A stretch of 55,281 nt of DNA from Chloroflexota bacterium. GTDB taxonomy: Bacteria > Chloroflexota > UBA6077 > FW602-bin22 > JAMCYS01. Shown here piece by piece: positions 1 to 38,633 of the stretch. Location: positions 1 through 55,281 of the forward strand of contig JAMCYS010000095.1 of the NCBI GenBank assembly GCA_023473795.1, read 5' to 3'. A model generated the notes under the pieces. That model saw nothing but the letters and a program-made list of their open reading frames with translations, made no database searches and was not told where the DNA came from. How positions within the stretch are numbered: the first letter of the stretch is position 1; each line of letters opens with the position of its first letter. A program made the position numbers and the translations under genes.

Positions 1-1
1 G

Positions 2-795
2 CAGCTGCTGCCGCTTCTTCTTCTGTACGTGGCCTGGCGGTGGCAATGGGCGGCTTTGGCCTGGTTCGCCGTGGTGGCAGCCACGATAGGGGCGCTCTCG
101 TCGGCGTTGGTTGGCCTGGGGGGTCTCCACAACTACGCGGCGCTGCTGCTCGGTGGCAACATCGGCTTCTGGTACCCCTGGAGCCACACTCTCATGGGGT
201 TGGCCCAATCCGGCCTGGGCCCTGACTACGCCTGGCCGGGATACATCCTGCTCTGCCTAGTGCAGCCTCAGAACAGGTCGTCGGTAATGCCCGTTGTCCA
301 CAGATGCGCGGATCACCGTCCCTGATGGGCGGCTGCCAACGTCCCTCGGTCCGACGATCCCCGAAGAGGTCATCTGTTCGTGCACTAGTTGTGCTGACCG
401 TTCTGGCGGCGAGCCTGGGATGGCGGCGGCATCTGCCTGCGGAGGAAAGCCAGCTGGCCCTCGCCGCCGTCGTTCTCGCCGCCTTGCTGGTTGCCAACTA
501 TTTGTTGATCTATGATCTGACCCTCTGGGCGGTGCCGTTGGCCCTGGCCTGGCCGGGCGCGGGCCAGCCGAAGAGCCGCAGGTTGGTGTTGTTGGCCTTC
601 TTGGCGCCTTGGCCGGTGCTGTTCCTGGCCAGCGGCGAGAGACCGTTCGTCTGGACAACTGTCCTCACCGAGCTAGTGGTCTTCGCGCTGCTTTGCCGGC
701 ACTTCTGGCTCGGGCGACTAGGCTCGGCGAGTAGCGGGCCCGGTCTGGGCGGGAACGGACCAACCGGACTGATCCACCCAGACGGAGGGCGATAA
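2..795 (+). pseudogene. GT87/DUF2029-like membrane protein, 5' partial, disrupted by a MITE
   Basis: C-terminal part of a polytopic membrane protein that begins before the window. Frame 2 runs open from base 2 with hydrophobic segments to about base 256. The 132-bp element at 257-388 interrupts it, and the protein resumes in frame 1 (about 389-795). Removing 128 bp (element plus one CTAG) rejoins the frames exactly and rebuilds a continuous hydrophobic helix. The distal part (YDLTLW, APWPVLFL, LCRHFWLG) aligns by eye with the end of the next gene (YDLTLW, APWLSVAL, LCRRYWLG), so the two are tandem paralogues. DUF2029/GT87 proteins are polyprenyl-phosphate-sugar-dependent mannosyltransferase-like enzymes; the substrate here is unknown. 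Family assignment is moderately sure, disruption very sure. Confidence 0.7.
257..388 (+). mobile_element. MITE-like non-autonomous element, copy 1
   Basis: 132 bp bounded by CTAG on both sides, with inner ends TGCA...TGCA. Ends are imperfect inverted repeats: the left end reads TGCAGCCTCAGAACAG and the right end, reverse-complemented, TGCACGAACAG. An identical copy lies at 20621-20752. Here it sits inside a coding frame and adds 128 bp net, so CTAG (or its central TA) is a target duplication. It has no coding capacity for a transposase. Short CTAG/TA duplications fit mobilisation in trans by an IS5-group or IS630-type enzyme; that is inference, since no such transposase is in the window. Confidence 0.8.
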
Positions 796-798
796 GGA

Positions 799-2015
799 AT
801 GCCAGTGTTGGTTTCCGGGGTGCGCGGCAATGCTGGCCGACGGCGTCTCCTCGCCGCGCTAGCCGGCCTGCTGCTCGGGCAGATCGGCGTGGTTGCCTTC
901 TTGGCTCTTCCCCTCTGGTTGGCGCCAGCCGATACCTCCGGCTGGGAAGCGGGCGTAGACTGGCGGACTTACCTTTCCGCCGTGGCCATCCTGCGCGGCG
1001 GCCAGGGCACCTTACTCTACGATCTACCCTCGCTGGGGGCAGTGCAGGCGGCGATGGGAGTAGACAGGGTGATTGCCTACCCTTACCATCCCGCCTTCTT
1101 GCTGCTGGTCTACCCTTTCACCCTTCTGCCGCTCGGCATATCCTTCTTGGCCTAGCTGCTGTTCAGTTTGGTGCTGCTGGCGCTGAGCCTGCGCGGGCCT
1201 TCGTGGGGCAGTCCGACCGGCTTCTCTTCGCGCTGCTGTTGGCGAGTATGCTGCCAGTGTTCATCGCGTTCCTGATGGGGCAGTCTACGATGATCCTCCT
1301 GCTCGGCCTGACTCTGGTCGCCACCGGTCTGAGGGGCCGCAACGATGCTGCGGCCGGGCTGGGATTGGCCATGCTGCTGATAAAGCCCCAACTGGTAGTG
1401 ATCCCGGTGGCTTTACTGGTCTGGCGGGGCAGACTGCGTGGGCTGGCTTACTTTGCCGTTGGTTGTCTGGCGGCGACGCGATTCTGGCTGGTTGGCTATG
1501 GCGGCGTGGCTGCCCATCTGGGCTTTCTGTCTTCAGGGGCGATGGCGCCTGAGTATCACGTCAGTCACACGCTGCTGGGTCTGGCGCTATCGATAGCCGG
1601 CGATAATGAGGGCTGGCAGGCATACCTGGCAATGGCTGGCGCTGTGTTGGTCGGCGGTGGAGCCGTTCTCTGGCGGCGACGCGATTCTGGCTCGTTCGAA
1701 CTGACGGATCAGCTGGCAATCGTGGTTCTGGCTTCGCTGCTGGTATCCCCCTACTTGCGACCGTACGATCTAACGCTGTGGAGCCTGCCGCTGGCAACGG
1801 CCTGGTCCTGGGCAAGCACGGGCAGGGGGCGTTGGCTGCTGGCAGCCTGTTTCATCGCCCCCTGGCTGAGCGTGGCTCTCTCGGGCCTCGGTCCCATTTC
1901 GCTGTGGCCGACCGTAGTTGCCGAGTTGCTTCTCTTCACGGCGCTTTGCCGTCGCTACTGGCTTGGGCTGCCGCACACGGCAGCTGCGGCAGTCCCCGCG
2001 GGCACGAATGGATGA
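799..2015 (+). pseudogene. GT87/DUF2029-like membrane glycosyltransferase, stop plus frameshift
   Basis: Second tandem paralogue, about 405 codons in total, a normal length for the family. The first part (799-1155, frame 1) ends at an in-frame TAG at 1153-1155, followed by more hydrophobic codons in the same frame. Near 1200 the homology moves to frame 3, which stays open to 2015 (an isolated GTG start lies at 1203). Many transmembrane stretches and the YLRPYDLTLW motif near the C-terminus match the gene upstream. Two independent lesions suggest decay, although sequencing error could explain either. It follows the upstream gene by 3 bp, consistent with one former operon. The product would work at the membrane on a lipid-linked sugar donor; substrate unknown. 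Confidence 0.6.
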
Positions 2016-18770: not shown

Positions 18771-20408
18771 TCATTGGTTGGCTGCAAAATTGTCGCTGCG
18801 GTTGTCGGGACCGGCGGGCGGCAGGGTGAAACAGAACCTGCTGCCCTTGCCCACTTCGCTCTCGACCCAGATGCGGCCACCATGGGCCTCGACCAGGGCT
18901 TTAGTAATGTAGAGGCCGAGCCCAAGGCCCTCCCGACGGTCACGAGCAGCCGCGGCTCGGTAGTAGCGCTGGAACAGACGGCCTAGTTGCTCGGCGGGTA
19001 TGCCGGGGCCACGGTCGACTACCGCAGCCACAACCCCTTCGGGGCCAGGGTTCACGACCAGAGCAACCTCGCTGCCTGCCGCCGAGTATTTGAGCGCGTT
19101 CGACAGGAGGTTGATCAGGATGCGCTCAAGACCGTCCGGGTCCGCCAGTACGGGCAGCGGCCGCTCCGGCAACTGGAGACTGATGCGTTCGGTATCCAGA
19201 ACGCCGGCCAAACGGTCTATGAGCTGGCGGCAGAACGATCGCAGGTCCAAAGCGGCGGGCCGAATTCTCAGCTGCCCACTCTCCAAACGGGCGGAGTCGA
19301 CCAGGTCCTGAATCATCGTCTGCATGCGCCGGGCGCTGGTGATGATGGCGCCGAGCGAGGTCTGGGTCCGCGCCGAAGAGGGACGCTTGCCCAGCACGCG
19401 TTCTAGAGACTGGGCTTGGCCGAGGACGATGGTCACCGGTGCGCGCAGATCGTGCGAAATGGCGCGGACGTAGTCTTCCTTGGCTTGTTCCAGCTCGTGC
19501 AGGCGAGTCACGTCCCGGAAGATACAGATGGCGAGGGCCACCTTGCCTTCCGAGTTGCGGACCGCGCTACCGGCGAAGGCCAGCCAGCGCTGGGAACCGT
19601 CGGCGTGGGCCAGGACGACCTGGACTTCACTGAAGCGGTCGCCACGTAGGGTGCGGCTGATTGGCCATTCGGCTGGAGCCAGTGGTGTGCCGTCCGGCCG
19701 GCGGAAGTTGAGAAAACGGTAGCCCTCCGGCGGCAAGGCTTCCTTGGTCTCGGGCAGACGCAGGATGTCCCTGGCTGCCTGGTTCAGCAGGGTGAGGGCG
19801 CCGTCTCCGGCCAAGATGAGGACCCCGGCGGTCATGCTCTCGAGCACCGCCTGCATTTGGACCACTTGCTGCTCGGCCCTCTGCCGGCAGGCGCGCTCGC
19901 TGGCGAGGAGGTCCGCTTGCTCGTCACCCACCTGCTGGCGCTCGCGCGCTATCCAGACTACCCCGACTGTGCTGCCGTCTTCGTCCCTCAGCGGTGAGAC
20001 GCTCAAGGATACGGCGACGCGCCGGCCGTTCTTGCGGACTCGTTCTGTCTCGAAGGGAGGGACATTTTCACCCTGCCGAACGCTCGCTAGCAGCCGTCCC
20101 AGCTCGTCGGTCAGCTCCCGGGGGATGAGGATAGAGAGGGACTTGCCCGCGACTTCGCTGGCGCTGAAGCCGAAGAGGCGTTCCGCGGCTGGGTTCCAGG
20201 TGTGGATGGTGCCCGTCAGTGACGCACTGAGGATGGCTTCCTGAGCGCTGGCAACGATGGCCGCGGCAGGTGCGGCAAGGGCATTCGGTGACCCGGCCTC
20301 ATGGAAACCATGCCCGGACCCCGAGCGCTGCCGCCGGCTCTGCTTCTGAGCCACGGACTGATTGAGGCCGCTGTTCGCGGTAGGCTCGGGTGACGAATCA
20401 CCTTCCAT
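18771..20408 (-). CDS. PAS-domain sensor histidine kinase (cytoplasmic)
   Basis: 545 residues with no membrane segment. PAS 1 spans about 45-160 ([14 protein letters not shown]), PAS 2 about 185-305. The HisKA H-box [11 protein letters not shown] has His at 319. The HATPase domain has the N-box LLSNALKYS, the G1 motif DRGPGIP and the G2 motif GLGLGLYI, all intact. It would autophosphorylate in response to a signal sensed by the PAS domains. No response regulator is adjacent, so it is an orphan kinase. A second orphan PAS kinase lies at 48257-49735. Confidence 0.9.
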
Positions 20409-20620: not shown

Positions 20621-20752
20621 CTAGTGCAGCCTCAGAACAGGTCGTCGGTAATGCCCGTTGTCCACAGATGCGCGGATCACCGTCCCTGATGGGCGGCTGC
20701 CAACGTCCCTCGGTCCGACGATCCCCGAAGAGGTCATCTGTTCGTGCACTAG
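20621..20752 (+). mobile_element. MITE-like element, copy 2
   Basis: Base-for-base identical to the element at 257-388, in the same orientation, again bordered by CTAG on both sides. It lies in the 20409-20875 gap between the histidine kinase and rfbB, about 80 bp upstream of the rfbB promoter. Identity of the two copies indicates recent movement. Confidence 0.8.
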
Positions 20753-20875: not shown

Positions 20876-21955
20876 GTGCGGCTGTCCCGGCGTGCCCATC
20901 CTTCCCCCTGGAGGCGAGCCATCACTACCATTCTGGTTACAGGCGGCGCCGGCTTCATCGGCAGCGAGTTCGTGCGCTACACCCTCGCCAACCACGCCGA
21001 TTACGATGTGGTCGTGCTCGATAAGCTCACCTACGCGGGCAACCTGGACAACCTGCGGCCGGTGTCGGAGAGCCCTCGTTACCGCTTCGTGCAGGGCGAT
21101 ATCGGCGAGGCTACGACCGTCGAGCCGCTCGTGGATGGCGCCGACGCCATAGTCAACTTCGCGGCCGAGACGCACGTCGACCGCTCGCTGCTGGACCCGG
21201 GCAGTTTCATCAACACCGACGTGTACGGTGTGCACGTGCTGCTGGAAGCCGTGCGCCGCACGGGCGGCAAAGCGCGCTTCCTGCAGGTCAGCACCGACGA
21301 GGTCTATGGCTCGATCGAGCAGGGCTCGTTCCAGGAGTCCGACCGTCTGCAGCCCCGCAGCCCCTACTCTGCCAGCAAGGCTGGGGGCGAGCTGATGGCG
21401 CAGGCCTACTTCGAGACCTACCGCCTGCACGTCGTCAGCACGCGCGGCTCCAACACCTTTGGCCCTTACCAGTACCCCGAGAAGATCATCCCGCTCTTCG
21501 TCACCAACGCTTTAGACAACCTGCCCCTACCCCTATACGGCGACGGGCTCAACGTGCGGGACTGGCTCTACGTCGGCGACCATTGCTCTGCCATCGACCT
21601 CGTGCTGCACGAAGGACGGGCCGGCGAGGCCTACAACGTGGGGGGCGGCAACGAACGCACGAATTTGTACGTGACGGAGACGATTCTGCAGCTGCTGGGT
21701 AAGCCCAGGAGTCTGATCAAGCCCGTGGCCGATCGTCCCGGGCACGACCGGCGCTACAGTCTGGACTGCGCCAAGGTGCGCCGGCTTGGCTGGCAACCCC
21801 AGCGCGACTTCCTGGCCGCGCTACGGGAGACGGTGGACTGGTACGCGGCCAACGAGTGGTGGTGGCGCCAGCTGAAGTCGGGCGAGTATCTGGACTACTA
21901 CAAGCAGAACTACGGGCAGAGAGACACGGCGGCGGCTGAGTCAGCCCGACCGTGA
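20876..21955 (+). CDS. rfbB: dTDP-glucose 4,6-dehydratase
   Basis: Extended SDR enzyme. NAD site LVTGGAGFIGSEFVRY; then DKLTYAGNL, STDEVYG (catalytic Thr-Asp-Glu), YSASKAGGELM (Tyr-Lys) and RGSNTFGPYQYPEKIIPLF. It converts dTDP-glucose to dTDP-4-keto-6-deoxyglucose for deoxysugar synthesis. No other rml genes are nearby. Start problem: the GTG at 20876 lies only ~10 nt from the predicted transcript start, has no Shine-Dalgarno, and adds 15 non-family residues. Family length would put the start at 20921, where GGAGG sits 6 nt upstream, but that codon is ATC. The canonical-codon coordinate is given here. Confidence 0.9.
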   Translation: MRLSRRAHPSPWRRAITTILVTGGAGFIGSEFVRYTLANHADYDVVVLDKLTYAGNLDNLRPVSESPRYRFVQGDIGEATTVEPLVDGADAIVNFAAETHVDRSLLDPGSFINTDVYGVHVLLEAVRRTGGKARFLQVSTDEVYGSIEQGSFQESDRLQPRSPYSASKAGGELMAQAYFETYRLHVVSTRGSNTFGPYQYPEKIIPLFVTNALDNLPLPLYGDGLNVRDWLYVGDHCSAIDLVLHEGRAGEAYNVGGGNERTNLYVTETILQLLGKPRSLIKPVADRPGHDRRYSLDCAKVRRLGWQPQRDFLAALRETVDWYAANEWWWRQLKSGEYLDYYKQNYGQRDTAAAESARP

Positions 21956-37381: not shown

Positions 37382-37409
37382 GCTGGCAGTCCGCTCGTGC
37401 TACTCCCTC

Positions 37410-37540
37410 TCGAATGCCTACGAGGTTAGCTGACGGGTTCGGGCCGAAAGAGCTGCCCTGCGCCGGCCCAAGCCGGCGATTCACCCCTCTGAATGGTTCC
37501 CCCGTTCCCCCTTGCCGGGGGATTCGGCTGCGCTATTCAC
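37410..37540 (-). promoter_or_regulatory. ydaO-yuaA (c-di-AMP) riboswitch, copy 1, upstream of otsA
   Basis: Read on the minus strand: GTGAATAGCGCAGCCGAATC, a C/G hairpin, GGGGGAACCA, GGGGTGAATC, a CCGGC/GCCGG hairpin, then GGGCAGCTC, CCCGAACCCGTCAGCTAACC and TCGTAGGC. These are the conserved ydaO elements in the right order. The last ~50 nt are identical to copy 2. ydaO aptamers bind cyclic di-AMP and normally promote termination. No own promoter with good spacing is visible, so it may be transcribed from the copy 2 promoter. Confidence 0.88.
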
Positions 37541-38477: not shown

Positions 38478-38505
38478 ATGTTAGCTCCGGCTGCGCCTCT
38501 CTCGA

Positions 38506-38633
38506 ATGCCTACGAGGTTAGCTGACGGGTTCGGGCCGAAAGAGCTGCCCTACCTCGGCCTAGGCCGAGGATTCACCCCACCGATTGGGTCCCCCGCTTC
38601 CTCCCCAAGGAGGAATTCGGCTCAACGCTATTC
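38506..38633 (-). promoter_or_regulatory. ydaO-yuaA (c-di-AMP) riboswitch, copy 2
   Basis: Minus strand: GTGAATAGCGTTGAGCCGAATT, hairpin CCTCC/GGAGG, GGGGGACCC, GGGGTGAATC, CCTCGGCC/GGCCGAGG, GGGCAGCTC, CCCGAACCCGTCAGCTAACC, TCGTAGGC. Core helices differ from copy 1 by paired, compensatory changes while the 3' third is identical, indicating duplicated but functional aptamers. It controls the small ORF and winged-helix gene. Confidence 0.88.

Follow-up and report, generated by a model that had tools for sequence, protein, structure and literature searches.

A CTAG-flanked MITE of a Chloroflexota bacterium and its probable source in a divergent IS630-family clade with a four-base target duplication

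The Locus

The stretch of DNA analyzed here (the window) comprises the 55,281 nucleotides of contig JAMCYS010000095.1 (C33) of a Chloroflexota bacterium (GCA_023473795.1). It opens with a membrane glycosyltransferase-like gene that is interrupted by a MITE with CTAG on both sides, and this gene is followed by a paralogue; a second copy of the element lies farther along (Table 1).

Table 1. Features of the MITE insertions and their surroundings in the window
Feature	Position	Strand	Remarks
Disrupted GT87-like membrane glycosyltransferase gene	1..795	+	5' end off contig; interrupted after base 256
Left target-duplication CTAG	257..260	.	same 4-mer at 385-388
MITE	261..384	+	124 bp, without transposase gene; 100% identical to 20625-20748
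MITE left end	261..293	+	homologous to 5' (promoter-side) end of IS630-clade elements
MITE right end	350..384	+	homologous to 3' end of transposase gene
Right target-duplication CTAG	385..388	.	CTAG at every visible copy border; 4-bp duplication in partner clade
Paralogous GT87 gene	799..2000 (end approximate)	+	three-frame translation; Pfam GT87
PAS/histidine-kinase-like gene flanking second MITE copy	18771-20408	-	named by eye
Second MITE copy with CTAG borders	20621..20752	+	intergenic
dTDP-glucose 4,6-dehydratase-like gene flanking second MITE copy	20876-21955	+	named by eye

The original prediction held that the removal of 128 bp restores the reading frame, and this is what is found: when the element is taken out and one CTAG is kept, the two frames join into 221 open codons that end at the stop at 793-795. 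In the allele with the MITE, the upstream frame ends at a TGA (323-325) that belongs to the element itself. The downstream paralogue aligns with the joined frame with no gap at the junction (40% identity over 211 residues), and it can therefore stand in, within the same genome, for an empty site. The description of the gene as a membrane glycosyltransferase is fair in the sense of GT87-like, and weak for the joined fragment alone, which reaches 21.4 bits against the Pfam GT87 cut-off of 25; the paralogue reaches 32.2 bits. The latter (799-2000) is a pseudogene: it has an in-frame TAG at 1153-1155, shortly followed by a frameshift, and its decay is unrelated to the MITE. The possibility that this TAG is the scar of an excised copy was rejected, given that the frame runs past it without inserted bases.

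Elsewhere in the window there are two c-di-AMP riboswitches (RF00379), at 37400-37539 and 38492-38632, both on the minus strand and about 1.1 kb apart, with scores of 100.3 and 104.1 bits.

Copies, Borders and Insertion Sites

The two copies in the window, borders included (257-388 and 20621-20752), have the same sequence throughout their 132 bp, as had been proposed. The search for further copies, also suggested at the outset, covered all 170 contigs of the assembly (4.44 Mb) and gave 26 matches including this pair, with no match for reversed control patterns. Fifteen of them are complete: 11 at 100%, which include the window pair, one at 98% (C170) and, at 87%, the copies on C3, C116 and C124. 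These three copies of the 87% form are identical to one another and show 17 differences from the main form, 16 of these in its middle part. The other 11 matches are cut short, either by the end of a contig or by a run of Ns, the left end being preserved in five and the right in six; since an assembly in 170 contigs may split one insertion into two partial copies, the number of insertions is between 21 and 26. The presence of about 20 identical copies suggests that the burst of copying was recent. Taken together, the identical copies and the disrupted frame support the view that a recent non-autonomous element has broken a GT87-like membrane gene.

Two lesser matches were set aside. A near-match at C27:48473 (2 mismatches in 21) was dropped because it is without a right end. 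A 31-bp match at C90:22-52 was at first taken for a longer element diverging inward; it runs on into sequence that recurs, inverted, at C90:1002-1022, and it is probably an assembly fold-back.

CTAG is present at all visible borders of all copies in the genome, which extends to the whole assembly what had been reported for the first copy, and beyond this tetranucleotide the flanks are unrelated to one another. In the window CTAG is under-represented (88 occurrences observed, 142 expected from trinucleotides), and yet it is found at all borders of the MITE; it must therefore reflect the choice of target. The ends are imperfect inverted repeats, as described before, with 16 of 30 positions matching (TGCA included). 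The element thus has the features by which MITEs are recognized: a length of less than 300 bp, dispersed multiple copies, target duplications, terminal inverted repeats and ends in common with an IS.

The MITE lies within genes at no fewer than three sites. Besides the gene in the window, when the flanks are joined, it is found to interrupt a multihaem MtrC/OmcA-like cytochrome gene on C126 (Pfam PF22113, 75.1 bits) and, in its 87% form, an adenylate-forming-enzyme-like gene on C3, whose joined product scores 25.6 bits for AMP-binding, below the 29.9 cut-off. At two other sites the insertion coincides with a stop codon: on C41 it sits exactly at the stop of an hslU-like AAA ATPase gene, which ends ATT CTC TAG, and on C124 (L022, around 1501-1632) at the stop of a csm3-like RAMP gene, with the TAG inside CTAG (hslU and csm3 are names given by eye, whereas the AAA and RAMP domains were assigned by Pfam). 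In both cases the stop codon is kept because the left CTAG is kept, which shows how insertion into CTAG, with four base pairs duplicated, can spare the gene upstream. The copy on C124 precedes a gene that is csm4-like by position only, in what is probably a type III CRISPR operon. On C116 (L023, 194-1181) a CTAG-flanked IS5-family element adjoins an 87% copy of the MITE, with one CTAG in common; each CTAG insertion creates new CTAG targets.

The idea that this sequence is a repeat with a regulatory or structural function, and not a mobile element as such, starts from its capacity to fold (RNA minimum of -48.5 kcal/mol). The fold is only weakly better than that of shuffled sequences (z of -1.9 as DNA and -1.8 as RNA), the repeat is found inside genes at the sites just mentioned, its ends are transposon ends (see below), and it was not found in the other genomes searched: its left-end 20-mer is absent from the genome-contig and viral-contig collections scanned, the 100 relatives gave a single, chance-like match of 24 bp, and the plasmids searched gave none. 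Such a function has next to no probability.

The Ends of the MITE and the Partner Clade

The first lead to a source came from a DDE_3 search, which identified a transposase fragment at the end of contig C15, in an element that terminates in CTAGTGCATGATCAGACAGCATTTTCGGTGATACCC. A second 3'-end fragment of the same IS630 clade lies at the start of C76. Both are cut by the contig end and have the same TGCA-CTAG terminus. The right end of the MITE is identical to the C76 fragment at 25 of 35 positions, and the sequence ATCCCCGAAGAGGTC within it corresponds to the IPEKV codons of the transposase C-terminus in the IS. The best matches to any single element are 25/35 for the right end and 23/33 for the left.

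Relatives of this partner clade were drawn from named Chloroflexi MAGs, from the class and, at the level of the phylum, from 400 genomes; 76 of these have matches (E <= 0.001), not all of which belong to the clade. Where the named relatives fall points to the Chloroflexota as the phylum of the host. Its full elements are about 1.2 kb long, with ends of the form CTAG TGCA...TGCA CTAG, and they are found across the Chloroflexota and also on plasmids of Azotobacter. Near-identical members are carried by pAcX50e and pAcX50f of A. chroococcum NCIMB 8003; these likewise have ends of this kind, CTAG borders and an A7 run.

Position profiles were built for the right end (16 IS sequences) and for the left end (14), from full-length elements or fragments and with no MITE sequence included. 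Over about 110,000 positions of the window, the MITE scores 20.7 on the right-end profile (next best site, 1.7) and 24.3 on the left-end profile (best non-MITE site, 12.4), and both of its copies rank first on both profiles, with left and right in the correct order. When the TGCA columns are removed the MITE is still first, at 12.8 against 3.1 on the right and at 16.8 against 13.1 on the left, the left margin being modest.

The suggested search for an IS with matching ends was successful in part: the ends of the clade match and the genome has two 3' fragments of it, but no complete clade element, and hence no complete parent, is present in the host assembly of 170 contigs. The statement that the window has no parent transposase is correct, as it contains no transposase of the matching clade and no hit to PF13358 or PF01609. 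Two other IS630-type elements were considered as parents and rejected, since their ends, TGGGTCAC on C149 (L050, 546-1908) and GCCGCTC on C122, do not match. The element on C149 is flanked by CTAG and has two frames and a D-to-E spacing of 34. A different MITE-like element, of 116 bp, is found in Chloroflexi FW602_bin.16 (L062, 1529-1644); it is flanked by CTAG, has related end motifs and low end-profile scores, and has a CTAG in common with a full IS630-clade element.

An alternative to be considered here is mobilization by a different family of transposase. MITEPsy1, whose related IS is listed as IS5?, duplicates CTAG or YTAA (PMC3189936), and an IS5-family transposase, of a family that likewise chooses CTAG and duplicates four base pairs, could move the present MITE in the way proposed for that element; the IS5-type neighbor on C116 (DDE_Tnp_1), which is flanked by CTAG and adjoins a copy, speaks for this. 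The ends of the latter, AATCTGTTATGCACTCTG and GGTCTGTTATGCACTTTG, differ from the termini of the MITE, however, and the IS5-like word near its right end is in the opposite orientation, whereas the IS630-clade ends match both ends far above background. Adjacency is what would be expected of two elements that seek CTAG. Mobilization by an IS5 transposase is thus very unlikely.

The Target Duplication

Elements of the Tc1/mariner/IS630 superfamily are taken to duplicate exactly TA. The original prediction left the target as CTAG or TA, and at CTAG targets duplications of TA and of CTAG are indistinguishable; for this reason, full-length copies of the partner clade were examined, namely 29 distinct ones from two related genomes. 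The flanking 4-mers agree on both sides in 29/29: 23 are CTAG, two CTAA, three TTAG and one ATAG, and TA is at the center of the target (nTAn) in every copy. A copy in G357 flanked by CTAA is otherwise identical to its CTAG-flanked sisters, and therefore the bases beside TA come from the target. The clade element at L061 has TTAG on both sides.

These observations bear on the reading of the MITE as a classical IS630 derivative, with a duplication of TA alone within a preference for CTAG. IS630 itself prefers TA in CTAG and ISY100 duplicates TA (PMC2170065), and as long as only CTAG targets are considered this model and a 4-bp one look alike. The six informative copies (6/29), in which the outer bases are not C and G and yet are matched, contradict it, the G357 copy among them, as does the L061 element, and it is likewise very improbable. 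The target duplication of the partner clade is of four bases, nTAn and mostly CTAG, and not of TA alone; in this it departs from the 2-bp TA duplication that serves as a criterion for the IS630 family. All copies of the MITE sit in CTAG, and the 4-bp duplication was measured on the partner clade rather than on the MITE.

The Transposase of the Partner Clade

The two-part transposase belongs to the IS630 type by its matches to NF033545 (NCBIfam IS630; 154.9 bits, cut-off 100) and PF13358 (DDE_3; 47.3, cut-off 28.6), with further Pfam matches to HTH_29 and HTH_23. In most of the elements read, the N-terminal and catalytic parts are encoded in separate frames, with the junction near an A6-A7 run; some distant members have the transposase in one frame. 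Of 30 sequences, 23 have a D-to-E spacing of 45, and in four others it lies within 44-49; the remaining three, other IS630-type sequences found at the same loci, have 34-36. The A. chroococcum NCIMB 8003 members have a spacing of 44. In ISY100 and IS630 this spacing is near 34, and the partner clade departs from this criterion of the family as well. A literature search for DD45E, with ISfinder and most subscription papers outside its reach, found no match.

Proposed Origin, Mechanism and Significance

The homology of both ends and the clade fragments in the same genome point to derivation from the partner clade: the element is very probably a MITE that arose by internal deletion of an IS of this distinct IS630-family clade and was moved in trans into CTAG. 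A full-length relative would supply the transposase, which would recognize the roughly 35-bp ends and, judging from the resemblance of these ends, may act on the MITE in trans. By analogy with ISY100, the transposase would excise the MITE by cut and paste. It would then insert the MITE at CTAG, where the cuts, as follows from the duplication, would be staggered by four bases instead of two, and these four bases would be duplicated.

As a MITE, the element belongs to a known kind, of which it is a new family, and by itself it is ordinary bacterial mobile DNA. Of more interest is the partner clade, which is a divergent IS630 subgroup with matched outer target positions in many independent copies. 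We are somewhat inclined to regard it as a widespread and essentially undescribed subgroup in which lengthening of the D-to-E segment by about 11 residues accompanies the change from a 2-bp to a 4-bp duplication. If this is true, the superfamily rule of TA duplication is not general. The longer catalytic segment makes the cause of the 4-bp duplication testable, and the two near-identical copies in a cultured Azotobacter chroococcum offer a workable laboratory source.

Comparison with Known Systems

The one published precedent found for the partner clade in the accessible literature, and a partial one, is ISHsp2 of Halomonas sp. ZM3. This member of the IS630 family has two ORFs that need a frameshift and duplicates TTAA; its authors considered it distinct and kept it within the family (PMC3606827). 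Both have an IS630-type transposase, two ORFs and a 4-bp duplication with central TA, and they differ in the target (TTAA versus CTAG), a comparison made by description. Similarly by description, the clade can be likened to the IS630 of Roseiflexus, also of the Chloroflexota, which is decoded through transcriptional realignment (PMC5009743).

The classical members, ISY100 and IS630, share with the partner clade the IS630/Tc1/mariner superfamily and the TA at the center of the target, but they duplicate just the two base pairs of TA and encode the transposase in one ORF, as opposed to four base pairs and, mostly, two frames. The transposase of ISY100 by itself excises the element and inserts it at a TA target, and IS630 duplicates TA with a preference for CTAG (Tenzen and Ohtsubo 1991, as cited in PMC2170065).

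With regard to the MITE, the closest parallels are RUP and MITEPsy1. RUP, of Streptococcus pneumoniae, the classic example of a MITE of the IS630 family, is a non-autonomous element of 107 bp whose ends match IS630-Spn1, and its mobilization in trans has been proposed (PMC2229807). Its insertions are of the TA type and intergenic, unlike the 4-bp CTAG insertions described here, at least three of which are genic, and it probably depends on a different IS630 lineage. MITEPsy1, of Pseudomonas syringae, has 100 nt and a 4-nt duplication and has been shown to move (PMC3189936); its ends relate to ISPsy2, whereas those of the present MITE relate to IS630.
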